Positions 21,849 through 57,341 of a DNA stretch of 64,000 nucleotides are shown here, in pieces. Each line of letters starts with the position of its first letter. The first letter of the stretch is position 1. The notes beneath the pieces were generated by a model, which saw only the letters and a list, made by a program, of their open reading frames with translations, ran no database searches and was not told where the DNA came from. Both the position numbers and the translations under genes were made by a program. The DNA is from Phoebastria nigripes. Taxonomy: Eukaryota > Chordata > Aves > Procellariiformes > Diomedeidae. The stretch is from positions 2,031,728 through 2,095,727 of the forward strand of contig JAYKAV010002955.1 of assembly GCA_035582835.1 (NCBI GenBank). The letters are read 5' to 3'.

Positions 21849-24371
21849 AGTGGTCCTTCTCTTGGGTTGACTGTGTCCTGGTTATCCGATGCCTACGTAA
21901 AGGGGATAGCTAGAAGATCCATTCCTGTCCTGAAAGACAGGGCTGCGGTTTTGGGCTAGAGGAATATCTACAGGGGGTTACAGGTGAGCCTTACGTTGAC
22001 ACAGCATGATGGTGACCACCAGGGCGATGAGGAGCAGGAGGCAAGCACCTGCCAAGGGAACCCAGATGAAGATGTTACAGAAGAAATTCAGCTCTTTCTT
22101 CTTGCTGGTCTCTGCAGGAATAGAGAAGAGGAAAGGTCCACTGGGTGCTCACGGCTGGTGTTATGGCCAGCTCTGGTGGAGCCAAGGGACCCGCCTGGCA
22201 TTCAGCGAGGCTGGCGGTGAGGCAGAGGGCTTCCCCTGGCCCCCAAAGGCAGAGGTGGGCACCAGGGATGTCCATGAGCGCAGCATGGGTGTCATCCCCC
22301 CTGGGGAGTGTTCGTTAGTGCTGCTGCTCTTGGCGTTTTCCTGGGGACTTGTGGGAGGACACGTAGCCAAAATTTTTTCTCATGTCCCCTGCAGAGGCTA
22401 AAACCAGCAGCAGCCCCCAAGGCTCTGCCTTCCCTCCACCTCTTCCCATTGTGCCCAGCCAGGAGACATGCATGTGCTTTTTAAATCATCCTTAGCCTTT
22501 CCCAAGTCGGATGAAACGTTGGGGTTTAACCCTCCCAGCTGCACATACCCAGGTATCCAACTCTGATAAAGCTCGAAGGATTTTCCCTCCCCTTCCCATC
22601 CCAAAGTGCCTGCAGGCTCCCCCTTGGTATCAGTGGACCAGAGCCCAGCTCTTCCCCTCTCCCTCCCTGCAGCTGGGCTACCTGGATCCGGGGTCTGCGG
22701 GCAGGGGTCCTTTTCGGTGATGCCATGCTGGGTGGTGGGTGCCGGTGTGGTGGGTGCCGCTGTGGTGATGACTATAAACGAAAATGGATGAATACAGCAT
22801 ATAGGGAAATACAATAAAATGGTGCGCTCCTGCCCTTCTGCTCTCCCATCCCTGCCAGGGCATGGCTGCTCCTGTGGCCAGCACAGGGCTCAGCTCCAGG
22901 GGAACTTCATAGAGCCCATTTTGGATGGTGACTCCCCCAAGGAGGGTCTCCCAAGACCCAGTAAGGAGCTGCAGGCTTCTTATTTCTTGCTTTCTGCCAC
23001 CATCCTCAGAAAGCCTGAGTACCCTGAGGTTGGTAGGACTTTTGGGACCTATGTGAGGTGAGGAAGGAGGGGGGGGTGGTGGACTTTGCTTTAGTCTCAT
23101 CCCTTCAGAGCCACTAATGGGTGAAGAAGTGGGGATTGGGAGGTGACGCTGGGTCTGTCCGTTCATCTTTGCCTTTGGGCAGGGGTGATACCATGAGAAG
23201 AAACGGCAAGCAGGGAGCTTCTGGCAGGAGGACTGGTGTGTTGGTCACAAGATGCCTTGGGCAAGCAAGCAGGGAAATGGGGTTTGTGGGAGAGGCAACT
23301 GATTAAAAAGGCACGGGCAGGGGGTGCTGGACATTTTGGCAGAGCTAAGCAAGGTTGGGTGGAGGTGTTGCTGACCTGGGAAGAAGGCGGGCTGGCCAGG
23401 GCTGAAGTACAGCATTTGGTTGCTGTTCATGAGGCAGAAATAGTTCCCCTCATCCTGTGGCATGAAAGACTTCACTACCAGCCGGTAGAACCTGCTGTCT
23501 TTCGTCGCCTCGAAGCGTGTGGATGTCCTCTCGTTCCCCTTGAAGGTGATCCGGGGCAGGGAGGAAATGAAGACGATAAAGTGAAGGGTCCCACCCTTGT
23601 CCAGGTGGACCCAGAATACGCCGCTGTCCTCCTTGTCGGCCAGACACTCCAGCTCCAGCCGCTGTCCCAGCTTGGGGTGCGTGATGCGGCTGTCACGAAA
23701 CCTGGCTGTCATCTTGTACCTCTGGCCCCAGATCCCAGGGCAGCCTGCGGGAGGGAAATCCTTGTGGGAACTGCTTGGGAAGACCCATGTCCCCTCCTGG
23801 CAAACCTTGTTCCCTGCCCATGGGGTGCGAGGTCAAATGCAAAGGATGACCGTGCTGTCTGGATGACTTGGAAGGTTTTATTGGAGTCCTTGCTGGGATC
23901 ACGTGTGGAGGGTGCTCAGCAATCAGCCACCCGGGCTTTAAAGTTGGGTGCTGCCCTTCAGAAAAGCCTTTCAGCTGCCTTCTCGGGGATGGTACCCCTT
24001 CCCAGCTTATCTGAAGTGACTCCCTAAAAACACTGACNGCTAAATCCCCTTTTTTTTCCCCTTCCCTCTCCTCTCCAGAACCACTTCTCCGACCGGGCTC
24101 CTTTCCCGGTGTGTATGATGCTGCAGCCACCCCTCTGGCTGCCCTACGCTGCCTGAGGTGATGCCGCCTTTACCTCGGCAATTACTGAGCAAACCTCAAA
24201 GTCAGCCTTTTTGGTTTGCTTTTTATTTTCCCTTTAACTATTTAGCCCAATTTCTTGGATTCAGTGGAAGTGGTTTATTTGCCCCTCCCGGTGAAGGTGA
24301 TGCACAACCCTGTGTCCATACTCACAGAGTCCCAGAGCGAGCAGAAGAAGCAGTGCAGGAGACCCAGTCAT
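20127..24371 (-). CDS. CD8A: CD8A, T-cell surface glycoprotein CD8 alpha chain
   Basis: Type I membrane co-receptor of cytotoxic T cells; it binds MHC class I as an alpha-alpha or alpha-beta dimer and recruits the kinase Lck. Exons (minus strand) are 24371-24326, 23744-23376, 22771-22682, 22111-21995 and 20302-20272, giving 217 in-phase residues. Residues 1-16 are a leader. The IgV domain has Cys49, Trp60 and Cys119 in DEGNYFC, then the J-like end FSPGQ. The hinge (139-175) is Thr/Pro-rich. The transmembrane segment is about 182-206. The tail RRRRCRCK carries the CXC (214, 216) used to coordinate zinc with Lck. The first four introns are phase 1. The end is unsettled: the CXC exon either splices at a GT at 20271 to an exon I could not find, or runs on in an open frame to a stop at 20127-20129. 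The listed left edge is the second option. Confidence 0.93.
20272..20302 (-). CDS. CD8A: CD8A exon 5 (cytoplasmic CXC motif)
   Basis: A 31-base exon after a tattttag acceptor, reading (Q)TRRRRCRCK(R), with a possible donor gttagt at 20271. The CXC pair matches the Lck-binding site. The frame also stays open to 20127 if the donor is not used. Confidence 0.85.
20303..21994 (-). other. CD8A intron 4 with long poly-T
   Basis: Intron between the transmembrane and tail exons. Its only striking content is the homopolymer at 21746-21843. Confidence 0.85.
21746..21843. repeat. poly-T run (poly-A on minus strand)
   Basis: T-rich from 21746 and uninterrupted T from 21762 to 21843 (82 bases). No flanking retroelement is recognisable. 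It is similar in length to the run at 2030-2119. Confidence 0.9.
21995..22111 (-). CDS. CD8A: CD8A exon 4 (transmembrane)
   Basis: Acceptor attcctgcag; donor gtaagg from 21994. It encodes a charged juxtamembrane stretch and the hydrophobic span from [11 protein letters not shown] to VTIMLCQ. Confidence 0.94.
22112..22681 (-). other. CD8A intron 3
   Basis: GC-rich intron; nothing recognised. Confidence 0.85.
22682..22771 (-). CDS. CD8A: CD8A exon 3 (hinge)
   Basis: Acceptor tttatag; donor gtagcc from 22681. It encodes the Thr/Pro-rich stalk ([16 protein letters not shown]) with a Cys at 162 that could form the inter-chain disulphide. O-glycosylation is expected from composition. Confidence 0.93.
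22772..23375 (-). other. CD8A intron 2
   Basis: GC-rich intron; nothing recognised. A plus-strand ORF that crosses it is antisense to CD8A exon 2. Confidence 0.85.
23376..23744 (-). CDS. CD8A: CD8A exon 2 (IgV domain)
   Basis: Acceptor ccctcccgcag; donor gtcagc from 23375. It encodes residues 17-138, the whole IgV domain including LELEC, GVFW and DEGNYFC. Confidence 0.96.
23745..24325 (-). other. CD8A intron 1
   Basis: Intron between leader and IgV exons; nothing recognised. Confidence 0.85.
24326..24371 (-). CDS. CD8A: CD8A exon 1 (start codon, signal peptide)
   Basis: ATG at 24371-24369 opens [15 protein letters not shown], a typical leader, with donor gtgagt from 24325. The exon has 46 coding bases and phase 1, the same as CD8B exon 1. 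Confidence 0.93.
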
Positions 24372-38497: not shown

Positions 38498-41400
38498 CTG
38501 GAGAGCAGGAGGGGACATGGTGTGGAGCTGCCCACCCCCAGCTCAGCACCCGGCATCATCCTGCCCCAGCAGCTTTGGGGGATGAAGGATGGGGTGGGGA
38601 GGGGAGAAAAGCAAGGCAGGTCCTCAGGANGGGTGGAGGACATGACCATCACCCTGGGCTATCCCTTGGAGGGTGTATTACACCCCAAAAACATTGCAGG
38701 GAACTTAGCTATGAGTCACAATAACCTTTTTTGTGGTGTCCTCTCTGGCATGGGAATTCACCATGCCTGAAGGACTGATGCTGTACCTGCAGGGGCTGCA
38801 CANCCAAGGGACAGCAGAGCTTAAGCAGAGCTAAAGGGAAGTACATCCTGGCCCCTAAACCCTCGTATATCCCAGGGAACCACTCCTAAAGGCAGAGGTC
38901 AGCTCCATCCAGAGTGGTGGGTCTAGGTGGACCTGGATGCCCATCCCTGCAGGGTCACGTTGTGGTTGTCCCCACCCCAGGACAAACTCCAGTTGAAGCC
39001 CGGGGACCCCCAAGGAGCTCAGCAAACACCTTTTGCAAGGCAGCCGGAGCCAACCNGGTTCTGTACCTTTCTTGCCAGCAGCTTTGCTTTTGGTTACGCA
39101 CCGCAAGGGCTTTTTGAAGAGCGGTGCCTGAGTGGTCTTCGGAGGCAGAGACAAAACATCAACTGATGGATAAGGAGGAGAAGAGGATGGTTAATAGGGC
39201 ACCAAGTGCAGCGGAGGTCTCAAAGAGCAGTCAGGAGGGGCTGGAAATTTTGACTTTTAAAACTAGCCCCATCCAGGGACCCCCACAAAGGGCTGGGTCA
39301 TCCAGAGGGACTGGGAGCTTGACCTGAACCTCTCGGTGGCCACAAAAGTTACAAAGAGCTTGTAAAAGCATTAATAAACCAACGTACAAGGGCAGAAGGT
39401 TAAGGCAGGGAAAAAGGAAACTTCCTCGAGCTACATTTTCTGCCAGGCACCATCTCATCAGCGTTGCACGAAATCACAGGTAGCGGGAGATTTCAGTAGC
39501 ACTGGGAGGTTTTAAGGGATCCCTGGATCTTTTCTGTATTCAGATTGCTCTAATCTTTGCTCAAAATTGGAATTTTTTTTTTTTGCTGATAAAATGAGGG
39601 CAGGATTTATTACGGTGTATCTGAATTACAACGGAGCACGTTCATCTCTGTAAAGTTGGTCAGGAAGATATCCCAGTAATGTCATTAAATAGCTGTACAT
39701 CTGACCGCTCAAACTCCACTTATTCAAAATGTTGGGTGATTCAAAACTATTTTTCTGCTTCTATCCAGGACTGAAATTCCTACGGAAACCACTGTTCTTT
39801 TACATGGAAAGATGAGACATCAGGTGCCTGGAATTTATCTGGATAACTTCTCCCTTACATTATAATAGACTTAAAGAAAAGGAACTTAAAGACAATGTGT
39901 TTTATCATGTGTACTAAAGGAAAAAAAGAAAATATCCAGCAAGGCCTGAGTCCTCCCAGAGCACCTGCTGCTGTTTAGTTGTAAATTGGAGTGTCCTTGA
40001 TCATGCTGCATTTCAGCCCTGTTTTTCATGCTTTGCTTTGCACATAGATATGTGCCCAGTTGATAAAAAACAGTTCTCTTTTATCTTAAACCAGCTTTTC
40101 TTTGAGCCGGCAAGAGTCCAAAAGGGTTTTCTCAGCCAGCTCAAGGTGCAGGGCATATTTGCAAAAAAACCAGAAAGGTTGGGTCACTGGGAATGATTTA
40201 GAGCCAGCAGCCGTAGCAGCATCTTGGTTAAATAAGTTATTTGTCTCCATAAAAGCCTGCCAAGAAAGGGCTGAATCCTACTTCAAACACATTATTTTTT
40301 CTACACCACCTCCTGCTCGGTGGTCAAGGGGAAAATGGGCTGAAAAGAGCTGTTGTATGCCCCAGGGTCTGTAAAGCCTCACTCCCCCAATGCCACCCGC
40401 AGGTAGCTCTGATTTCTGGTTGGAACTCTCCAATGATGGTGGGTTGTGAGCTTTGAGGACTAAATCCCAATTCAATCCTTTTTGTGAAGGAGAGGCTTGA
40501 AACCTGCGGCCAGACCCACCCCAGCGATGCGAGTGGTGATGTCCTCTGGCCTTGATGTTGCTCTTGTCACTTGGAGGAAGGGTAAGGAAGAACCGGGGTG
40601 GGGGAGGACCCGGGAGCTGAGCAGGGCACATATCCAGCCTCTCATCCAAAGTTCCACAGGGAACGAGAAAAACGCAGGGCATGGCAATATTGGAAGCTGA
40701 GCGTCTTCCCGTGGAAATCCTAAGACACTAGGACCAACACGGTGCTCAAGGCATGACCACAGCAGAGCAACCACCAGTGGCAAAAGGACTATCACATGCA
40801 GCTGACCTAAAATATAGCTGTTTTCTGTATTTTCTGACTTCACTGGTCTCATAGGTCTNTTCAGGAAAACCCCAGAGCCCCAACCTTGCATCTCAAAATT
40901 GGGAAGGGTGGCACATTTTAGAGCCCCGGGGGTGATGCTTACCCACACCGAGCCGTGTCCCGCTGCCCAGGAGGAGCTGGGAGGACTGGGAGATGCAGCA
41001 GTAATAGGTGCCGTTGTCCGAGGCGTGGAGGTGGCTGATGTGCAGGCTGTAGGAGGTGCGGGAACTCACCCCATGGACACTAAACTTGTCCTGGCTGATG
41101 TTTGCGCCGTACATGGCTTTGCCCAACAGGTTGGAAAATACCAAGAACTCGAAATTTTGCCTCTCCTGGCTCCAGCGGTACCAGTACACCCCGGCATGCT
41201 CCTTCTTCAGCTCACAGAGGATTTCTGTTTTATTGTTAGTTTGGGCTAAAATGTGCTCTGGAGTCTGGGATAAAAGCAGATTTGTACAGAAACCTAAGAA
41301 AAAAGAGACAGGAATACATAGTTATTATTTTGTTTTCATTATTTTTCTTCCATGCTAAGTACAAANATTTTCTTTGTGGGCTTAATAAGATCAAGTAGTC

Positions 41401-47100: not shown

Positions 47101-47749
47101 ATTTTTTTGCTTTTTAAGTTTTTAAAATTATTTTATTACAGGGAAGGGTGTAGCTTCTGGAGTATTTCATTAGGGGGAGAAGCAGCGATGAAAATGATAG
47201 TATTTTCACTGAGTAAGATGAGTACTACCTTTTTCTTAGTGTAACGGCAGAAAAAAAATCAAGCGGGTCGAGTTTTCTTTTCTAAACTGCTCGGAGCTAA
47301 GACGTGGTTTGGGGGGATCTGTCTGCCTTTGCAGGTGCAGATTTACAGCTGTACTTCAGCTGATGCAATATCACAGTTGAGGCTCCTGACACGTCGTGGG
47401 GTACCCCCAAGGTATACGCCAGCGTGNGGCGGGCTGGTTTGTGGCATGGAAAAATGCTGCTTTTGAAGTCCAGAAGCCAAAATAGATCTAAACTACAAAC
47501 TGTGTGAATTTTCCTGCCATCTCATCTCCCCTCAACGAGCAATTTGTACTTGGAGGGAGAATTTGGGGGGACCGTGTGTGTCAGGTCCCCCTGGACAGGT
47601 GTCAGGTGTGAGCCCCATGAGTGATCTCCCCCCAAAACCCAGGTGCTGACTGTGTGTGCAGCAAGTGAGGAGGCCATTGGGGGACTTTGGGAGGATGGAT
47701 GCTGAGGGGACAGGCTCCAGCTCTCCCTCTTCAGGGCACTTGGTGCAAG
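44121..47749. other. spacer between CD8B and the retroviral locus
   Basis: Contains the CD8B upstream region at its left end. No gene or mobile element is recognised. It is the only stretch between two divergently transcribed units and so the natural place for shared control elements. Confidence 0.6.
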
Positions 47750-47984
47750 CAGAAGTTAGCATAAGCNAGCGGTGACTAATCCTGGGCCCCNCCAAAACAG
47801 ATAAGGGGCAGAGCAGCTGCTCCCATGTGATTTCAGCCTCCCTAATCAGTGCCAAAGAGGATAAGGAAAGACGAGGAAAGTGTCCTTGGGAAGACAGGGG
47901 GAGGGATGCAACACCTGCAGGAGGAAAAGTCACCGAGAAAGTAAACAGAGGCGTTATCAGCCCCAAACAATGACCTGCCATGGC

Positions 47985-47992
47985 TATAAAAA
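47985..47992 (+). promoter_or_regulatory. TATA box of 5' LTR
   Basis: TATAAAAA in ccatggctataaaaagcg; transcription would start near 48015-48020. The aligned position in the 3' LTR (about 57065) reads ggtaaaag, with no TATA box. Confidence 0.7.
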
Positions 47993-48106
47993 GCGACTGG
48001 GGTGAGACTTCGTGAACACCTTGATCTTAAAGGTGCTGAATCCACGGGAGCTCTGCAGTGACTGTCTCCAGGTCCCCGGGACTGCCAGGACATCCAGCCA
48101 AGGATT

Positions 48107-48113
48107 GGTGAGA
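48107..48113 (+). promoter_or_regulatory. candidate splice donor in the leader
   Basis: attg|gtgaga, with the GT at 48108-48109, lies about 90 bases after the expected start of transcription and is kept in both LTR copies. Joined to the acceptor at 53811 it would make a spliced env mRNA. Confidence 0.4.
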
Positions 48114-48402
48114 TCTTATTATCGGGGTCCTACTACACCTCTGCTTTGTTTTGCCCATTCCCGCGTCCCTTCCCCGTCCCCTCCCCGGGAGCCGGCGGGT
48201 TGCGGCAGCTGCCCACTCAGCNGCGGCCACCCATCCCCACCTTCCCCTTCCCTTGCTACCAGGTTCAGCATCCCCCCGGGGGGGGCTTTTCAGAGGGGTG
48301 GGTCGCGGGGTCGCAGCCTTCCTCTGCGGGTGGGTCGGTGGTGCTGGTGTTATGGTAGCTTTGCCCTAAGACGGAGCCGTCTCGGAACTCGTTCCCCTCA
48401 CT

Positions 48403-50100
48403 ATGATGACTGACATCGTTAGCAACTGGAAGCTGGAGCAGTTTGTGCTCCAGAAGTGTCTCCCCCCAGTTTGGTCCCCAGGGGCCTTCCAGGGCCCAGA
48501 GGCATACCAGCAGCTGTGCCAGCAGTGGGAGAGCTGGTCGGAGGAGACCAAAAAACCCAAACCCACAAACAAGTGCAAGAAGCGAGCAGCTTTGCAGGGT
48601 TTGCTGATGGTGGGCAGGGAGTTGTCCAAATTGCTGAAGGAGGCTCTTGAGAGCGTGCAGACGCTGGAGCAGGCCAAGGGCGAGCTCAAAATGCAGGTGG
48701 ACAACCTGCGGGCAGAGGTGCAGGGTTTGTGCGGGGACTCTCTGCGGAGCGCAGTGGAGATCACCCGGCTGGAGAGCAAGCTGGGCTACGAGAAGCTGAA
48801 AACGGAGGAGCTGGAGAAGGAGGTCGGCAAGTGGATTGGGGAGACCCACGATGCCCAGAGCGCGGTGCGGGCGGTCCTGCAGGACGTCCAGCGGGACCGG
48901 GGCACTGGCCCCGATCACAAGGTATGCCATGCCAAGATCCAGGAGCTGCAGGCAGAGCTGGGGGTGTCGAGGGGCATCGTGGCTGCCATCCAAGGCAAGA
49001 GGAGCCGGTTCGGGAATGGCGAAGGGGAGGACTCCCCNGACCCGCACCCGCCCCACTACGATTACGAGGATGACGTGTGGGGTGCCAATGGCCCCACCAG
49101 GCCATCNCCCTATGCTCCCCTGCGGGAGGAGATGTGCCAGCTGCAGGGAGGGGAGGTGGAGGCTTCCAAAATTAAAAAGAATCCCCCCGATGAGCCAGCT
49201 GGCCATGGCCCACTCCAGGCCATAGACACCAACAGGGCTGTGCTCTGGTTTACCCCCGAGCAGCTCAAAACGGTGGGGAAGATGCTGGGGCCGTTGACGA
49301 AGGAGACGGCAGTCAACTGGCTGTCCAGGGCCCAGCGGCTGCCCAGGTGCCAGAGCGGCAACTTGGTGAGTGACCTGATAGANGTGGTGAGAAAGTGCAT
49401 GAAACCAGATGATTTTGCGGCGCTGCCGGGGGACGTGCAGATGGGCAACGTCCAGGACATTGGGGATGTCCAGTTGGCCGTGCTGAAGGTGTTCTTCCCA
49501 GAGGTCAACCCCTTAGTGCTCTTCCACCAGGAGAAGCAAAACCCCGAGGAGCGGCCGGACGCCTACGTTAACCGTAAGAAGATGCTCTACCAGATAGCCG
49601 GGCTGCCCGGCTCAAAGGACTCCCCCCTCGATTTTGACAGGCCCGAATTCAAGGAGCCGCTGGTGGTGGGGCTGACGCCCCCGTTGCGGGTGATTGCTGG
49701 TGGGGATGCAGCCAGAAAGCCGCTGTTGGAGCTGGAGCAGATCCTAACCCAGAATTTTGAGCTGCAAAAGCAGGCGTTCCCGGGGTACATGCTGGGGGGG
49801 AAGAAAGGGAAAACCTCAGCCATGTCCTTCCAAAATGCAGGGGTGAGAAAAATGCAAGGAGACAACCGAAAAGATCCTGATGGCAAGGGCGGTTCGGGGA
49901 AGGAGAACCAGCAAGGGCTGAGGTTTCAGAAGTCCAACCCTTGGCGGGCTGAGCTGAGGAAGCGCTTGATAAAATATGAGAAGCAGGAGGATATCGATGG
50001 CTTGCCGGATGCGGAGCTCTTCCGAAAACTGGCCCTGCACGAGGCCAAAAAGCACAGCAGCTCCAACCCGATTGACCCGGGGTCTAAGGCTCAGCAATAG
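48403..50100 (+). CDS. gag: retroviral Gag polyprotein, full-length open frame
   Basis: 565 codons from ATG at 48403 to TAG at 50098. The role in a virus is particle assembly. The N-terminus begins MMTD and has no Gly2, so no myristoylation signal. Residues about 66-198 are Leu/Glu/Lys-rich and predicted coiled coil. An acidic linker carries PPHY (216-219), a PPxY-type ESCRT-recruiting motif. Residues about 270-470 look like capsid; a major-homology-region-like segment (QNPEERPDAYVNR) is at about 380-392. The last 100 residues are rich in Lys, Arg, Gly and Gln but contain no Cys, so there is no CCHC zinc knuckle. Three Ns (49038, 49107, 49383) each leave one residue unknown. No stop or frameshift interrupts it. 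The minus-strand ORFs across it are shadows. Confidence 0.9.
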   Translation: MMTDIVSNWKLEQFVLQKCLPPVWSPGAFQGPEAYQQLCQQWESWSEETKKPKPTNKCKKRAALQGLLMVGRELSKLLKEALESVQTLEQAKGELKMQVDNLRAEVQGLCGDSLRSAVEITRLESKLGYEKLKTEELEKEVGKWIGETHDAQSAVRAVLQDVQRDRGTGPDHKVCHAKIQELQAELGVSRGIVAAIQGKRSRFGNGEGEDSXDPHPPHYDYEDDVWGANGPTRPXPYAPLREEMCQLQGGEVEASKIKKNPPDEPAGHGPLQAIDTNRAVLWFTPEQLKTVGKMLGPLTKETAVNWLSRAQRLPRCQSGNLVSDLIXVVRKCMKPDDFAALPGDVQMGNVQDIGDVQLAVLKVFFPEVNPLVLFHQEKQNPEERPDAYVNRKKMLYQIAGLPGSKDSPLDFDRPEFKEPLVVGLTPPLRVIAGGDAARKPLLELEQILTQNFELQKQAFPGYMLGGKKGKTSAMSFQNAGVRKMQGDNRKDPDGKGGSGKENQQGLRFQKSNPWRAELRKRLIKYEKQEDIDGLPDAELFRKLALHEAKKHSSSNPIDPGSKAQQ

Positions 50101-50103
50101 GGC
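50098..50103 (+). promoter_or_regulatory. in-frame UAG between gag and pol (stop-codon readthrough site)
   Basis: gag ends caa TAG ggc and pol continues in the same frame without another stop. This is the gamma/epsilonretrovirus arrangement, in which a fraction of ribosomes read through UAG, rather than a -1 frameshift. Whether it still works is unknown. Confidence 0.7.
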
Positions 50104-53100
50104 TGCCAGGCACCCGCATCGCCCCTTTTTGTGGCACCGATTAAGACCGATTTGTGGGGGCGCCTGATAGTTGATATAACTATTGGAGGAGGGGTGCTTG
50201 GACAAGTGATGTTAATTGATACTGGTGCCTCTTATTCAATTCTGAATATGGCCCCTGGCGAAGCCGGGCTCTTCCAAACCTGTGAACTTATTGAATTGAC
50301 AGGGCCGAACGGCCAAAAATCCTCAGTGCCGTTCACAGGGCCCGTACCTTTTGAAATTGGGACTGCCAAAGGGTCTGAAAAATTTGGGAAAATGGAAATG
50401 AAGGGAAAGCCAGGAATTTTAGCCATCTCTGCGCTGACAAAGATGGGGGTGGTGGTGGACCTGGCAAACCAAGCGCTGTTACACTGCCCCCAAAGTGATG
50501 CGCCTGTTATCCCGGCGAGCCACAGGGTAATGTCGGTGAAAGCCCCTGAGCTCCTGGTCCACCCTGAGTGGGAGCCCCGAGTGAAACGGGTCACGGAGCA
50601 GTTCCCCCAGGTCTGGGCAAGGAGCAAGCTGGACTGTGGGCAGATTGATGCTGTCGTGGCAGTCAAAGGGCCGGATCCCCCTCCTCAGCCGCAGCTCCGG
50701 TACCCGGCTGAGGCTGAGGACGGCTTGTGGGACACAGTCAAAACCTTGCTGGAGCAGGGGGTGCTGGTGGAGCAGCAGAGCACCAGCAACGCCCCAGTGT
50801 GGCCCCTGCGGAAAGCTGATGGGAAAACGTGGAGGCTGACGGTCGACTTTGGCGCCCTGAACCGTGTCACCCCGCTGCGGACCTCCGTGGTGGCCAAGTA
50901 CCCCGACATCATGGCAGCCATCTCCCGGGGATCCGAGTGGTTCTCGGTGCTCAGCCTGACCAGCCCATCCTTTGCCATCCCCTTGCACCCTGAGTCCTGG
51001 CACAAGTTTGCCTTCACCCTTCGAGGACGGCAATTTGCCTTCGCCAGAGTCCCCCCGGGCTTCCACAACACCCCTGCCATCTGCCACGCGCACGTGGCGA
51101 GGATGTGGGAGAAGCTCGGCCACCGGGAGAGCGTGCTGTCCTGTGCCGGTGACATCCTCATCCACACCCGGACAAAGGAGGAGAACCTGGAGGTGCTGGC
51201 AGAGGTGNTGGAGGCTGTCCAGAAGACGGGCTTCAGGGTCAGCCCCACGAAGGCCCAGCTATGCTGGAAGGAGGTCTCCTACCTAGGGGTGACCCTGCGG
51301 GAGGAAGGGTGCTTGCTGGAGAAGCAGAGGGTTGAGCTAATACAGAAGGTGTCGGCGCCGGCCGATGCCGCCACCCTGAGGTCCTTCCTGGCTCTTCTGA
51401 GGTTCTCCCGGGAGTTCATCGAGGGCTATGCGGAGAAAGCTGCCCCCCTCTGCCACCTCCTGAAGAAGGACACCCCCTGGCAATGGGGGCCGGAGCAGGA
51501 CGAGGCGGTGAAGACCTTAAAGGAGAGTGTGGCGCGAGCCCTTATGCTGGCACGTCCCCAGGGGGACAGACCCTATGTCCTGCAGCTGGCCAGCGCAGGG
51601 AGGGGGCTACGGGCCACTCTGGGCCAGCAGCATGGTGCCCACCTCCTCCCTGTTGCCCATGCCTCGCGCCTCCTGACGCCGGCCGAGCAGCAGTTCACTG
51701 ACTACGAGAGGGAAGTTTTAGCCTTGACCTGGGCCCTGCAGCACTGGGAGTACCTGGTGGGGTCGGCCCCGGTGCTGCTGAGGACCTCCCGTGCCCCAGT
51801 GAGGTATCTCTTGTCGGGGAAGGGGAACGAGGGTCCCCTGCGCTGCCCCAGGATGGCCAACTGGGCATTAGAGTTGACCGACAGGGAGGTCCCCGGGGAG
51901 GCGGGGGAGCCCTTGTCTGGTGCCTACGGGGTGGTAATCAGTGGAGAGAGGAACGGGGAGGAGCTGGAGGGTCCTCCGGCCGAGCTCAAGCCACAGCGGG
52001 CGCTCCTGTTTGAGAGCGGCCTCAGCCTGGCGGAGGCCAAGGAGAGAGGCTATGTCGTGTGGTTTGTAGATGGGTCCAACTACCACGAGAAAGGAGTACC
52101 CTACACGGGCTATGCTGCCGTCAACCGAGGCACCGGGGAGGTGGTGAAGGGGAAGTGCCTGCCGCACTCCATCCAGGCTGCCGAGCTGGTGGCTGTGACG
52201 GCTGCCCTGGAAAACACACCGGCAGACCAGCCGCTGGCCATATTTTCGGACTCGGGTTGGGTGGTGCGAGCGGTGCTGGAGTGGCTGCCGCTCTGGAGGG
52301 AGAGGGACATGCAGTCTGCTGACGGCAAGCCCGTCACCTATGCTAAAAAGCTGCTGTACCTCGCGAGGCTGGCGGAGCAGAGGGCATGCCCGGCCCATAT
52401 CATTAAGGTCAAGGCCCACAAGAAGGGAACGGAGGAGGCCAAGTGGAACAAGGAGGCAGATGCCAAAGCCAAGCAAGGTGCGAAGGAAGGGCTGATGTGG
52501 AAGGCCAGCCAGCCCTCGGAGAACGGCCCTGTGTCAGTGGCTCCCAGCAGACACTGGGAGAGCGTGGACCTGCTGGGCTTGCAGGCGCAAGACCCCAGCA
52601 TCCTGGAGTTAGCACAGGGCAGGGAGTATAAAGGGTGCAAGGTGTGGAAGGATGTCTCGGGGCTGGTCCTGGCGCAAAGGGAGGGGGCGGACTTCCCAGT
52701 CTGGGTGGTGCCTGAACTTGTCCGGACAGAGCTGGTGGCCTTGGCTCATGAGCAGGGGCATCTGGGGACAGACAAGACCATGGGGAGGCTGCAGGGCGCT
52801 GGGTGGTGGCCTGAAATGAAAGAGGACGTGGAGAGGTACGTCAACAACTGCCTGACATGCGCAGCCAACAATCCCGATGCCAAAACAGCCAAAGCCCTCC
52901 TGGGTCACCAGAGGATTTCTGGGCCATGGAGCAAGTTGCAGATGGAGTTTATTGGCCCTTTGCCCCAAACAGCCCAAGGGAACAGGTATTGCTTGGTGAT
53001 CAGTGATAACTTCACCAAGTGGGTGGAAGCGTTTCCGGCTCGAAACAACACGGCCAGCGCAACCGCAAAGATCCTGGTAGAGCACATCTTCTCACGGTGG

Positions 53101-53775
53101 GGTGTCCCAAAGGAGATCGACTCAGACCACGGCCAACGCTTTGTCGGAGAAGTCACGAAAGGGGTGTGCCAAGCCCTGGGCATCAAGCAAAAGCTTCACA
53201 TCACGGGGCATTTCCATAAGCCCGGCTTGGCGGAGGGACCCAACCAGCCGCTGAAGACTGCACTGAGGAAGCTTGTGAACCAGCAAAGGAAAGACTGGGA
53301 TCAGAAGCTCCCGCTGGTCCTGCTGGCGTTACGGGGATCTGTGGCATCTCACACACCTTCTCCCCAAAAGCTGCCTCCTGCAAGAGATCCGAAGCTGCCA
53401 GGACACTGGTGGCAAAGAGGGGAGCCCCCGGATGAACTGCAGCCCCGTGTGCTGATGGACAGATGGGTCCAGGACATACTGAGGACCGTGTCGGCTACGT
53501 ACCACCAGCTCGCCTTGGTGCAGGAGACCAACATCCCCAAGATGGATAAGCAGCTGGGAGTGCTGCTGCGCCCCATGGAGTGGAACACAGGGGACCTGGT
53601 AACATATCGGGGGGTTAGAGAGAAGAACCAGGTGCTGGGACCCCAATGGATGGGGCCCGTTAGGGTTGTGAACAAGGCCAGCCCCTCCATGTACCAGGTA
53701 GAAATCAGAAAGGGGGCGAAAAGGCAGGAAAAATGGCTCCATTCTTCACAATTAAAAGCATGGAAGGGAAATTAA
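50101..53775 (+). CDS. pol: retroviral Pol (protease, RT, RNase H, integrase), open but RT and integrase catalytic residues changed
   Basis: Open from the codon after the gag UAG to TAA at 53773. Residue numbers count from the codon at 50131. Protease: DTGAS at 30-34 is kept. RT: the motif A aspartate is Ser275 (FSVLSL), motif B is VPPGF, and the YxDD motif is CAGD (338-341), so two of three catalytic aspartates are gone and polymerase activity is not expected. RNase H: D647, E685, D707 and D777 are all present. Integrase: zinc ligands H873, H877, C907 and C910 are present; of the catalytic triad the first Asp is Glu939 while D999 and E1035 remain with exact 35-residue spacing. A GPY/F-like C-terminal domain follows. 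Length (about 1,224 codons) is normal for class I pol. One N at 51208. Confidence 0.92.
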   Translation, partial: GCQAPASPLFVAPIKTDLWGRLIVDITIGGGVLGQVMLIDTGASYSILNMAPGEAGLFQTCELIELTGPNGQKSSVPFTGPVPFEIGTAKGSEKFGKMEMKGKPGILAISALTKMGVVVDLANQALLHCPQSDAPVIPASHRVMSVKAPELLVHPEWEPRVKRVTEQFPQVWARSKLDCGQIDAVVAVKGPDPPPQPQLRYPAEAEDGLWDTVKTLLEQGVLVEQQSTSNAPVWPLRKADGKTWRLTVDFGALNRVTPLRTSVVAKYPDIMAAISRGSEWFSVLSLTSPSFAIPLHPESWHKFAFTLRGRQFAFARVPPGFHNTPAICHAHVARMWEKLGHRESVLSCAGDILIHTRTKEENLEVLAEVXEAVQKTGFRVSPTKAQLCWKEVSYLGVTLREEGCLLEKQRVELIQKVSAPADAATLRSFLALLRFSREFIEGYAEKAAPLCHLLKKDTPWQWGPEQDEAVKTLKESVARALMLARPQGDRPYVLQLASAGRGLRATLGQQHGAHLLPVAHASRLLTPAEQQFTDYEREVLALTWALQHWEYLVGSAPVLLRTSRAPVRYLLSGKGNEGPLRCPRMANWALELTDREVPGEAGEPLSGAYGVVISGERNGEELEGPPAELKPQRALLFESGLSLAEAKERGYVVWFVDGSNYHEKGVPYTGYAAVNRGTGEVVKGKCLPHSIQAAELVAVTAALENTPADQPLAIFSDSGWVVRAVLEWLPLWRERDMQSADGKPVTYAKKLLYLARLAEQRACPAHIIKVKAHKKGTEEAKWNKEADAKAKQGAKEGLMWKASQPSENGPVSVAPSRHWESVDLLGLQAQDPSILELAQGREYKGCKVWKDVSGLVLAQREGADFPVWVVPELVRTELVALAHEQGHLGTDKTMGRLQGAGWWPEMKEDVERYVNNCLTCAANNPDAKTAKALLGHQRISGPWSKLQMEFIGPLPQTAQGNRYCLVISDNFTKWVEAFPARNNTASATAKILVEHIFSRWGVPKEIDSDHGQRFVGEVTKGVCQALGIKQKLHITGHFHKPGLAEGPNQPLKTALRKLVNQQRKDWDQKLPLVLLALRGSVASHTPSPQKLPPARDPKLPGHWWQRGEPPDELQPRVLMDRWVQDILRTVSATYHQLALVQETNIPKMDKQLGVLLRPMEWNTGDLVTYRGVREKNQVLGPQWMGPVRVVNKASPSMYQVEIRKGAKRQEKWLHSSQLKAWKGN

Positions 53776-53789
53776 CGGGGCTGGAGAGC

Positions 53790-53811
53790 CCATCTTGCTT
53801 ATGTTTTGCAG
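53790..53811 (+). promoter_or_regulatory. splice acceptor just before env
   Basis: A pyrimidine-rich stretch ends in tgcttatgttttgcag, with AG at 53810-53811, ten bases before the env ATG at 53822. This is the expected acceptor for a subgenomic env mRNA. Confidence 0.65.
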
Positions 53812-53821
53812 ATAAAGGAAA

Positions 53822-56446
53822 ATGGAAGGCGATTGTGACCGGCGGGAAGGGCGAACTTCGTGGCATCACCAGCCCTGTTTGCGCTGCGGGGAAAATGCTT
53901 TCAAATTTCTGGTTGCAGGATTTGCTTTGCTTTCTGGTATGTGCATAGCGCTGAGCACCCAACATGCCCAACCAACCCATCAGCATCTCAGACAAAAAGT
54001 CAGTCGTTCCTACTTAGAAAGGCACCCCAACACATGGGCCACAGCCCAGCACAGGGTTAAGAGGTACACAAAAATTGGGACCGATTGGCCCTGGTCTCAA
54101 GCTCACATAAAATATACAGGAAGCATGGGATTAAATTCTAACAAAGAGTTAAATTTGTCAACGGTGGTTATGCACGGGACGGAGGTGTACTTGGAAAATG
54201 AGTGGAGCTGGGATAGCACAAACAGACTTCCACAGCTGCTGGGGAAGGTGGGACAAGAAATAAAGGTAGGGTGCAGGGTAATTAATGGATCCACTCACCA
54301 GCGAGTAACTCAAATCTCCGTAACCGAAGTAAAAACTAAGAAGAATCAGAAAAAAACCTGCGCTGTGGAAAAATTGGACTGCTGGTGCAATTTTACTTTG
54401 GCCCAGCCAGTCTTTGTGGTCTGCCTCTGGGCACACAACAGCGTGGGGCTGTCCTTTAAATTCAAGATTAGCACCACGACACGCTCCTTTGCTGCTGTTA
54501 AGATCTCAAAGTGCCATTTTTTGGCCTGGCATGCAGCCCAATATGCTGAAGTTGGCAACCAAGTAAAATTGGAGATTAAATACTCCCAAGAAAGTATAAC
54601 TGACCCGATGCAAATTGATGGCACCACCGTGACTATCACTGCCCCTAACAGCCGCAAGTGGGTCGTGTCAGTAAACTGCCTCCGCGAGAGCAAAACACTT
54701 AATAGATCTGAATTAGGCACGGAGGCTTCATGGTATAATCAGGATTACGGACGCTGCCCACACCTGGTCATAAACCTCCAGGTGTGGTGTCGAGGAAACC
54801 TGGCCGTAGAAATGTCCCCCGAGCTTGGAGGAATGTGGTGGATAGGAGGCCCCGAAGGATTTAAAAGAGAGTTTACCATCATTGCTGTCTTACGCCCTTT
54901 TGTTTCCAAAATAGGTCCTTATGTAGTCAAGCAAAATCACATCCAAGAGCTGTTGACCGGGCCTGTCCGGTCACTGAAGAAGGTGGTGTTGTCTCTGTCC
55001 ACTGTTAATATTTCATCCGTCAGACCGCACTGTACCCCCTTCCTATCCACCCTCAACACCGGCTGGCTGGCGTGGCTCCACAGCCGCTCCATCCAGGGGA
55101 CCCGGGCCAGGAGAGACCTGCTGGCCACGGCGCTGGGAGGAGGAGGCGCCGGGCTGGGAGTCCTCAACAGCATGAATGTTGAGGTCTTGGCCAACAAGTT
55201 GGAGGCTGTCACCTCGGGCGTGCAGGGCCTCCTCAGCCCCCTGAATTCATCCCTGGCCAGCCTCGGGATGGGGCAGTGGCTCGTGTCAGAGGTGTTGCCC
55301 ACCTGGGAACAAATAAGTGAAAAAGACCACCAGGTGCTGTTGCGAGCACTGGGCATCGAACAAAGTAACGTCTCTCTTGCTCTTAGTTGCATCCAGGCCC
55401 AGATGTGGGTGCAGAGTGTCGTTGCAGGTATCCTGAGAGACGGCGACAACGGCGTCCTCCCCACTGAGATCCGAAAGATTGTGTGGGACGCGGCCACAGG
55501 GAAGGAGCGGCAGCTCCAAGCCTGGTGGAGGCTCGTCAACTTCACCCACGACCAGGTCCTCAACGCAGTCATCGCCCACGTCCTGACCGTGGCGGAGGCC
55601 CGCATCGAAAAGGTCTACCCCATCGTGGCCCTGGGGGTTAACACAAATGGGTCCGTGGTCTACCCCCTGGACCACCGCATGTGGGCGAGGGTGTCTGATG
55701 GGAAATGGCAATCGGTAGATTTGGAAGCCTGCATTTTGGAAAGGGGGCTGGGATTCATATGCGAAGATGATGCCCTTAAGGCGAGCGATGTTTGCTTTGA
55801 CACCAAAGAAGGGGTGTGTCATTTTGAGATCAATCCCCAGAGCAGTAATAAAACCGTGTTAGCGTACGTAGGGAAAGGGTGCGTGTGTTTTAGAACGATG
55901 TGTAAATACGTGCAAATTAATGAAGTTTATAATCAGACCGTGTTTAATGACTCAAATATGTGTGCTTGCAATGTAGCTGTTATTAGAGGCTGTGATTTTG
56001 TGTATAAACCGCCTGTGTTTACTAGCCAGTTGCTAATCAGAAACTATACCTTGTATCGTAGTATAACCCCAACCCCCATCGGTATGGATTTATCACTTGT
56101 AAAAGAAATGTTAGAGCATGCAAATTTACAGCAGCTGTTAGAAAATGCTAAGGCAGAAGCTAAAAAGATCCTAATAACTGTACATCACGATGGTAATGTT
56201 ATAAAACAGGTAATGGAACGAATTAAGAGGGTGGGAGAACACCACTGGTGGGAAATTTTCTTCGGCTGGTCCCCCACGGCCACCGGCGTCTTCAACACGC
56301 TGCTGCACCCCATTGTAGTGATACTGCTAATGCAAATCTGCGTGTGCTTTGCCATGGTAGCGACTTGTTACCGGGTGAGGCAGGTGAAGCTCTGCATTGA
56401 CAACCAGGTGAAAGGACTGGGGCTGGCCAAGCGCCTCCTACCATAG
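53822..56446 (+). CDS. env: retroviral Env glycoprotein, full-length open frame
   Basis: 874 codons with no internal stop, beginning 47 bases after the pol stop and in another frame; pol and env do not overlap. A polar leader of about 27 residues is followed by a hydrophobic signal core (about 29-44). A furin-type site RARR (428-431) divides a 431-residue surface part from a 443-residue membrane part. The Gly/Ala/Leu-rich stretch right after it looks like a fusion peptide. The membrane part is about twice the gammaretroviral length, with a Cys cluster at 687, 689 and 694, no clear CX6CC, and about a dozen N-glycosylation sequons across the protein. One membrane span is at about 828-850 with a tail of about 24 residues. 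It is therefore not a murine-leukaemia-type Env; long TM subunits of this kind occur in epsilon- and foamy-like viruses. Cell-fusion or receptor activity cannot be read from the sequence. Confidence 0.9.
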   Translation: MEGDCDRREGRTSWHHQPCLRCGENAFKFLVAGFALLSGMCIALSTQHAQPTHQHLRQKVSRSYLERHPNTWATAQHRVKRYTKIGTDWPWSQAHIKYTGSMGLNSNKELNLSTVVMHGTEVYLENEWSWDSTNRLPQLLGKVGQEIKVGCRVINGSTHQRVTQISVTEVKTKKNQKKTCAVEKLDCWCNFTLAQPVFVVCLWAHNSVGLSFKFKISTTTRSFAAVKISKCHFLAWHAAQYAEVGNQVKLEIKYSQESITDPMQIDGTTVTITAPNSRKWVVSVNCLRESKTLNRSELGTEASWYNQDYGRCPHLVINLQVWCRGNLAVEMSPELGGMWWIGGPEGFKREFTIIAVLRPFVSKIGPYVVKQNHIQELLTGPVRSLKKVVLSLSTVNISSVRPHCTPFLSTLNTGWLAWLHSRSIQGTRARRDLLATALGGGGAGLGVLNSMNVEVLANKLEAVTSGVQGLLSPLNSSLASLGMGQWLVSEVLPTWEQISEKDHQVLLRALGIEQSNVSLALSCIQAQMWVQSVVAGILRDGDNGVLPTEIRKIVWDAATGKERQLQAWWRLVNFTHDQVLNAVIAHVLTVAEARIEKVYPIVALGVNTNGSVVYPLDHRMWARVSDGKWQSVDLEACILERGLGFICEDDALKASDVCFDTKEGVCHFEINPQSSNKTVLAYVGKGCVCFRTMCKYVQINEVYNQTVFNDSNMCACNVAVIRGCDFVYKPPVFTSQLLIRNYTLYRSITPTPIGMDLSLVKEMLEHANLQQLLENAKAEAKKILITVHHDGNVIKQVMERIKRVGEHHWWEIFFGWSPTATGVFNTLLHPIVVILLMQICVCFAMVATCYRVRQVKLCIDNQVKGLGLAKRLLP

Positions 56447-56640
56447 TCAAGGGCAAGACTGGGTTGGCCTCTGTGTTTGCCACCAAGAAGAACTTTTAGC
56501 TCCGCTGTTGGCTGCAACCCAGTAGGCGTTGAGCGGTGGGGACACATGCCATACCAGACCTTGATGTGAGGGATGGCCTCCTCTGTTATAAGAGGGCCAT
56601 CCAGGAGGAGAGGGCAGGCCAAGCAGCCTGTGGTTGGCAT
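56447..56640 (+). other. region between env and the CR1/3' LTR
   Basis: Non-coding. A purine-rich stretch near 56596-56610 (ggaggagagggcagg) could be a worn polypurine tract; this is weak. Confidence 0.3.
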
Positions 56641-56840
56641 GAATCACAGAATGGTTGAGGTTGGAAGGGACCTCTTGAGATGATCTAGTCCATCCCCCCC
56701 TGCTTAAGCAGGGTCACCTAGAGCAGATTGCCCAGGACTGTGTCCAGTTGGGTTTTGACTATCTCCACAGATGGAGACTCCACAACCTCTCTGGGCAAAC
56801 CTGTTCCAGTGTTTGATCACCCTCACAGTAAAAAAGCAAG
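56641..56840 (-). mobile_element. CR1 LINE 3' fragment inside the provirus
   Basis: aatcacagaatggttgaggt, ttggaagggacctcttgaga, gggtcacctagagcagattg and the stretch ending cctcacagtaaaaaa match the common avian CR1 3' end read in reverse. It ends exactly where LTR similarity begins (agagttagcataag), so it was inserted at, or has replaced, the left edge of the 3' LTR. Confidence 0.88.
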
Positions 56841-56841
56841 A

Positions 56842-57341
56842 GTTAGCATAAGTAACTTGTCTTTGAACCTCCCATCCCCAAATGCTAATGTGAAGAAGCT
56901 GCTCTTGTGTGATTCAAGACTCCTTAAGCAAAGGAGAATGGGATAAGGAACGCCAAGGACAGTGTCTTTGGAAGGAAAAAGAAGGGAATGTAATGCCTAA
57001 GCGTTGAAAACCACCCACTGAAGATGGCAGAGGTGTTACCAGCCTCAAAGACTCAGAAAGACGGTAAAAGATGAGCAGAACGAAAGACCCTGCAATCACC
57101 TTGGACTTAAAGGAGCTGAATCCACATGGACCTTTGCAGCAACCATTTCCAGGTTCCCGAGACTCCCAGGACGTCTGGCCAACGGATTGGTGAGATCTTG
57201 TTTTCGGAGCCTGGACATCACCGCTTTGCTTTGCCTAGTTGTGCATGTACTCAATAAAATTTGTCTCTTAGACGACGGACTGTCTATTCAATCACCGCCT
57301 GCTCAGCTACTCGCTACCCAGGCTTGTAACTTTGGCTACAC
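56842..57341 (+). mobile_element. 3' LTR of endogenous retrovirus
   Basis: Aligns with the 5' LTR at 47750-48156 and continues further right with a polyadenylation signal and R/U5-like sequence that the 5' copy lacks. The right boundary is a guess (near gtaactttggctaca) because neither a target duplication nor a matching 5' end is available. Confidence 0.8.
57253..57258 (+). terminator. polyadenylation signal of 3' LTR
   Basis: AATAAA in tactcaataaaatttg. No AATAAA occurs at the matching place of the 5' LTR or between it and the gag start. Confidence 0.75.

Follow-up and report, generated by a model that had tools for sequence, protein, structure and literature searches.

The question raised by this locus was why a provirus whose long terminal repeats (LTRs) had drifted far apart should still have every reading frame open. 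The window, which was the whole 64-kb stretch of Phoebastria nigripes DNA analysed, contained three retroviral frames running from stop to stop at 48370-50100 (gag), 50101-53775 (pol) and 53816-56446 (env). As claimed in the original prediction, all three were open, and their translation gave 565, 1224 and 874 codons with terminal stops only. The pol frame was the same as the gag frame, and the TAG at 50098-50100 alone separated them, while env had 876 residues when read from 53816 and 874 from the ATG at 53822. Three N bases fell within gag and one within pol, while env had none; 46 were scattered across the window.

The repeats were compared in two ways. In a strict alignment, positions 48017-48125 matched 57097-57207 with 90 of 109 columns identical, and the 19 differences were close to the 20 or so in 95 bases counted originally. 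A looser alignment covered 397 columns, of which 275 (69%) were identical and 122 differed (K2P 0.40), and it scored 118 in comparison to 19 for the best of 300 shuffles. The U3 part (47747-47967) aligned by itself as well, with 144 of 213 columns identical and 69 different, and none of 1000 shuffles was as good. The avian neutral rate is about 2e-9 changes per site per year, at which a K2P distance of 0.40 corresponded to about 100 million years between the LTRs. The R block is better kept, is transcribed and contains the splice donor, and it would by itself yield a lower age. For the 5' limit of the LTR, the sequence to the left of the CR1-like piece was compared with that to the left of the 5' repeat; these did not align, and 489 of 500 shuffles were as good.

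The decay expected of unselected frames was simulated starting from the present ones, with neutral change set at 0.20 per site (half of the repeat divergence), substitutions only and 200 runs per gene. The simulation led to roughly 10 stops for gag, 22 for pol and 17 for env, and we observed none. Even at half that rate, 5.7, 12.8 and 9.7 stops were produced, respectively, and the lowest of the 200 gag runs had none. Thus, with stops the only kind of damage modelled, the expectation that unselected codons should have collected many of them was borne out, and the reading of the locus as a host gene of retroviral origin was supported.

The accompanying guess that this gene was the orthologue of chicken Ovex1 also proved right. 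The landmarks described in 2009 (PMC2717909) were found here, CD8A was located on the left, and Env was 86% identical to chicken LOC422926 over its whole length (100% of the query), this being the locus name for the 3' part of Ovex1 with ORF3 (PMC2717909). Gag, Pol and ORF3 were open, with Pol in the Gag frame past an amber codon, and a Gag 12-mer and a protease 12-mer were the same as those quoted in that paper. Similar to Ovex1 of chicken and zebra finch as described in PMC2717909, the locus had the same frame order, a Gag of 565 codons, Pol in frame past an amber stop, MLIDTGASYSIL as the protease site, KKPKPTNKCKKR as the basic stretch and the MHR. Moreover, the dead RT, the E replacing the first IN Asp, the splice pair, the TATA box, the polyA signal and the CD8 neighbour were common to both. 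On the other hand, the chicken Env had 873 codons rather than 874, and the LTR remnant was traceable into U3 here, whereas that paper reported no U3 repeat.

We considered it almost certain that the locus at 48403-56446 was the P. nigripes orthologue of Ovex1, a provirus retained as a host gene. It illustrated a known gene well rather than revealing a new one, since the core claim of a domesticated provirus has been in print since 2009, when selection and a host role for Ovex1 were already argued (PMC2717909). The additions made here were modest, namely palaeognath relatives, catalytic losses common with ostrich, U3 remnants, a conserved furin motif in the Env leader, and a control within the same genome made up of decayed relatives. 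The features of the locus are collected in Table 1.

Table 1. Features of the Ovex1 locus of Phoebastria nigripes and of its left neighbours (positions in the window).
Feature	Position	Strand	Basis or remark
Open frame with CD8A immunoglobulin exon, left neighbour	23248-23832	-	Best PDB match CD8 alpha chain, E 1.4e-39; V-set
Second V-set exon, left neighbour, between CD8A and Ovex1	40896-41321	-	V-set, E 4e-16; J-like GSGTRL end
5' LTR remnant (U3 + R)	47747-48155	+	Aligns to 56834-57235; R-like block 48017-48125
TATA box of LTR promoter (putative)	47985-47991	+	Sequence and chicken analogy
Splice donor junction (putative)	48107/48108, GT 48108-48109	+	GGATTG/GTGAGA; chicken analogy
gag, 565 codons, stop TAG 50098-50100	48403-50100	+	KKPKPTNKCKKR and MHR present
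pro-pol, 1224 codons, gag frame	50101-53775	+	RVT_1, RNase H and integrase domains
Protease active site D-T-G, kept	50218-50226	+	Pol row comparison
First RT catalytic Asp, replaced by Ser	50953-50955	+	Pol row comparison
YxDD, reads C-A-G-D	51142-51153	+	Pol row comparison
RNase H span, four acids D, E, D, D kept	52069-52461	+	Pol row comparison
First integrase catalytic Asp, replaced by Glu	52945-52947	+	Pol row comparison
Splice acceptor junction (putative)	53811/53812, AG 53810-53811	+	Sequence TTTTGCAG; chicken analogy
env (ORF3), 874 codons	53822-56446	+	Membrane anchor near residues 826-849
Leader furin-like motif RVKR, Env 78-81	54053-54064	+	After hydrophobic leader
SU/TM furin-like motif RARR, Env 428-431	55103-55114	+	Gly-rich stretch next
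Purine run, possible polypurine tract	56603-56614	+	Sequence
CR1-like fragment in 3' UTR, rough limits	56640-56833	- (antisense)	By eye
3' LTR remnant	56834-57235	+	Alignment to 5' remnant
Polyadenylation signal AATAAA	57253-57258	+	Sequence

The piece that we took to be CR1-like was recognised by eye from the known 3' end of CR1. An antisense CR1 piece is present in the 3' UTR of Ovex1 in both chicken and zebra finch, and the chicken 3' UTR also carries a run of 13 purines and an AAUAAA signal near the polyA site (PMC2717909). In the 5' part of the chicken gene, the TATA box is 23 bases upstream of the cap site, the intron starts at +97, and ORF3 begins 11 bases past the acceptor, as it did here (PMC2717909).

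Ovex1 has been placed between CD8 and SMYD1 (PMC2717909). On the left side, the CD8A exon was identified from a motif scan and the second V-set exon from a further 10 ORFs. The latter matched 2461 sequences with CD8 beta among them, though not as the best, and its sequence suggested that it was probably CD8B. A scan for SMYD1 motifs, run without a positive control, gave no match in the window or over the next 29.3 kb to its right, and 30 ORFs from the flanks gave nothing in Pfam at E 0.01.

Open frames taken alone would also fit a young provirus that was inserted recently and whose LTR mismatch arose via recombination or gene conversion. However, no close copy of the locus was found in the genome, either for env (among the matches listed), for gag or for a 601-base piece of pol. 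The env search, in which 52 of 251 candidates were scored, listed 71 matches besides Ovex1; the identity of these env-like places was 31-61%, and none of the matches listed exceeded 61%. The Gag search returned itself and two weak matches (39% and 23%), and the pol piece matched itself only. Thus, gag-pol was present as a single copy on the evidence of gag and the 601-base piece, and the near-identical copies elsewhere that had been named beforehand as the mark of a recent insertion did not appear in these searches. The two weak Gag matches, L003 on C1232 (39% over 115 residues with stops) and L004 on C1222 (23% across 185 residues; its frame of 444 was open), were possibly chance matches between coiled coils.

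The env relatives provided a control from the same genome. Among the matches listed, all 12 other places with at least 400 matched residues had at least two in-frame stops and Ovex1 had none, so relatives of the same env family decayed and Ovex1 did not. An open piece by itself proved little, since some shorter relatives were also open, including three (C700, C1395 and C1652) over 313-336 residues. This multi-copy avian ERV family can be called GGLTR11/TERV-like, a name borrowed from PMC2717909. Its SU domain and TM were homologous to those of Ovex1. In contrast to Ovex1, the family had many copies, of which the longer ones were broken (among the matches listed).

For the relatives in other birds, about 8000 candidates from the protein database were scored for each of Gag, Env and Pol. 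At least 7 proteins were 86-96% identical to Gag. There were at least 55 Env matches, where P0008-P0034 were orthologue-like (at least 82%) and those from P0035 onward, at 35-55%, were other family members with the exception of P0061. Env identity was 95% in Balearica and 87% in Apteryx mantelli (874 residues). The Pol matches numbered at least 74, and P0063-P0078 were orthologue-like at 83-93%, including Struthio camelus (85% over 91%), Grus (91%) and Ciconia (92%), with coverage of 88-97% of the query. The original prediction had named absence from related birds as a point against itself, and relatives were instead present across birds including kiwi and ostrich. That chicken and kiwi have full-length relatives of Env (86-87%) also argued against a recent insertion.

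We built an Env tree of 11 rows, leaving out P0032 as a gene model that departed at its end. The oscines formed one group and the suboscines another, and Gallus grouped with another row and Apteryx. Six of the eight inner branches were well supported; the position of the window sequence beside Balearica was not. The tree fitted vertical descent in birds as their relationships are generally understood, and it suggested that the host of this locus belongs to the Neoaves. A pigeon protein, P0061, was considered as a second Ovex1-like locus (pol and env at 50-55%) and rejected, because by eye its pieces hardly differed from Ovex1, although stretches were absent; on that inspection we took it for a broken model of the pigeon gene orthologous to Ovex1.

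The authors of the 2009 paper noted that palaeognaths must be examined to date the insertion of Ovex1 (PMC2717909), so the kiwi and ostrich relatives bear on their question of its entry time. A study from 2016 listed Ovex1 in turkey, duck, 18 Neoaves and four reptiles, and drew on the genomes of ostrich and tinamou for its repeat content (PMC5006616). No statement on palaeognath Ovex1 was found in the literature searched, a coverage outside which most subscription papers lay. The dead residues in ostrich and the protein identity suggested that kiwi and ostrich may have the insertion at the same site.

Catalytic residues of Pol were compared in 16 Ovex1-like rows, which comprised the window, five named birds and ten further rows and covered ostrich, with the odd gene models P0061 and P0077 left out. 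All 16 rows had lost the first RT Asp (15 had Ser and one had Cys) and the first Asp of YxDD (15 Gly, one Ser), and all had Glu in place of the first integrase Asp. Neither the RT and IN catalytic residues nor the paired LTRs of a replication-competent provirus were intact at this locus. Two outside relatives, P0079 and P0080, had all of these RT and IN residues intact. Since the losses were common with ostrich, they most simply predate the split of living birds, and RT and IN probably died before these birds diverged, which would have left the element unable to copy itself unaided from then on. The shared losses provided an argument for vertical descent that was independent of the flanks. They were also difficult to reconcile with a recent insertion, because the dead RT and IN were common to ostrich and 14 other rows, and we regarded such an insertion as hardly credible.

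Other parts of Pol were kept. The protease D-T-G was present in 13 of 14 covering rows (D-I-G in the remaining one), the four RNase H acids in 15 of 16 (one row lacked one acid), and the integrase zinc ligands in all 16. Of the positions identical in P0079 and P0080, Ovex1 retained 46 of 74 in RT, 28 of 42 in RNase H, 52 of 70 in the IN core and 7 of 12 in the protease. Dead and live domains were thus kept about equally, and for this reason the retained protease and RNase H residues said little about activity. P0079 and P0080 were 43% and 31-33% identical to Ovex1 Pol and belonged among the relatives of the lineage from which it arose. All three retroviral genes of Ovex1 were retained after the catalytic residues of its copying enzymes were lost, which made it an unusual case.

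Env had two putative furin sites. The pattern R-x-[KR]-R was present at residues 428-431 in 12 of 12 rows and at residues 78-81 in all 11 rows that cover that site. In 11 rows (P0032 left out), 22 of 29 cysteines were invariant; the protein had 13 glycosylation sequons. We looked for the leader motif before the first SU domain in 15 ERV relatives. It was absent from all eight in which the start of the domain was found, and the other seven, several of them short at the front, were uninformative. We therefore treated the leader motif as what looks like a trait of Ovex1, in contrast to the multi-copy family. A leader furin motif together with a long TM resembles Env of foamy viruses. A kinship with them was rejected, since the motif was missing in the eight relatives with a domain start.

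Env of the window had no Pfam family, and its AlphaFold model was poor (mean pLDDT 48, pTM 0.30), with block means of 55-84 over residues about 111-220. Some members of the multi-copy family differed from Ovex1 in having two tandem domains of the first SU type, and hence an SU duplication was suspected in Ovex1 as well. Comparison of profiles did not support the idea that residues 223-357 repeat the domain at 95-222 (hhalign probabilities 1.1% and 0.25%, with three control stretches at 0.1-0.3%), and a tblastn search of seven relatives with 223-357 gave nothing convincing. The tandem domains were seen in L009 (C1799), L010 (C1397), L013 (C1290) and L015 (C1443), and also in C146 and C1792. L011, L012 and L014 had a single first domain, with about 60% identity to the one in Ovex1.

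Gag in chicken has the same length, motifs and stop type (PMC2717909). Over 8 rows the mean column identity of Gag was 92%. At lax thresholds, only weak Pfam families below their cut-offs were obtained for Gag, and neither Gag nor Env had a match better than E 0.25 among PDB sequences. RNA folding 3' of the amber codon was not significant in comparison to shuffles (z -1.1 and +0.6) under a model without pseudoknots. With no significant RNA structure, the argument for amber read-through came from the conservation of pol, because in chicken both unspliced and spliced RNA were seen and pol had no RNA of its own (PMC2717909).

We read the locus as a single, very old provirus that was inserted beside CD8 before living birds split and was then retained as a host gene. 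Its old 5' LTR may still act as a promoter. The unspliced RNA would then produce Gag and, via amber read-through, less Gag-Pol, and a singly spliced RNA would produce Env by analogy with chicken. Since Gag-Pol was no longer able to copy or insert itself, its conserved parts must serve the host.

A host could also need one protein only, either Env or Gag, with the other frames spared by selection on one RNA or by slow decay. The syncytins, where a single retroviral gene was kept, provide a precedent for this. Similar to the syncytins, a retroviral protein was retained here as a host gene; unlike them and other captured env genes, gag, pol and env were all open at this locus, apparently under one promoter and one splice pair, as judged from the sequence and the description of chicken Ovex1 (PMC2717909). 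A chicken follicle proteome also fitted selection on one protein, as its table listed C7ACT2 of gene LOC422926, the name of the ORF3 part, among the proteins differing between follicle stages (PMC7367319, PMC2717909). However, the published dN/dS between chicken and finch was 0.08, 0.18 and 0.16, below 0.2 in all three genes and lowest in Gag (0.08) (PMC2717909). The mean identity in Gag and the stops expected from the simulation in each frame also stood against this explanation, and we considered it improbable.

The production of Ovex1 protein was an open question in 2009 (PMC2717909), and with a follicle protein recorded under the gene name LOC422926 (PMC7367319), a functional test in chicken would be reasonable. 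In embryonic gonads, LOC422926 RNA showed a bias to the left in males and females alike (PMC10572726), and its level was low in large yellow follicles (PMC8944860). Expression of Ovex1 was wide and highest in the ovary, and receptor interference was proposed for Env (PMC5006616).

In line with that proposal for Env, the proteins might be restriction factors, where Env blocks the receptors of related retroviruses and Gag poisons their assembly. The genome did contain relatives of the same env family (71 were listed in addition to Ovex1), which means that the lineage was infected by related retroviruses. Restriction factors are usually under positive selection, and Ovex1 showed strong conservation instead of fast change. 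Moreover, its highest published expression was in the ovary (PMC5006616). Our best guess, itself tentative, was that the supporting cells of the ovary are where Gag assembles and is trimmed by the kept protease, with Env working either on the cell surface or on a Gag particle. We ranked this particle or surface role first among the functions, restriction second as a possible but doubtful one, and the need for one protein last, and left the rest to other functions. A more complete version, in which a whole retrovirus was domesticated and RT-dead, IN-dead Ovex1 makes Gag, protease, RNase H and an Env cleaved at two sites and builds an Env-bearing Gag particle in ovarian supporting cells, and has done so since before the palaeognath/neognath split, seemed rather unlikely.

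Outside birds, CrocERV37-39 group with Ovex1 in a published phylogeny, where a similarity to SpeV of tuatara was also reported. These are separate ERVs of crocodilians and tuatara. Viral contigs scanned with gag, a pol relative and an env alignment contained no relative. Within birds, the kiwi ERV envelope P0035 (Apteryx mantelli) and Ovex1 Env had 79% identity across residues 88-216 but only 51% across the TM half, a pattern that may reflect recombination or gene conversion.
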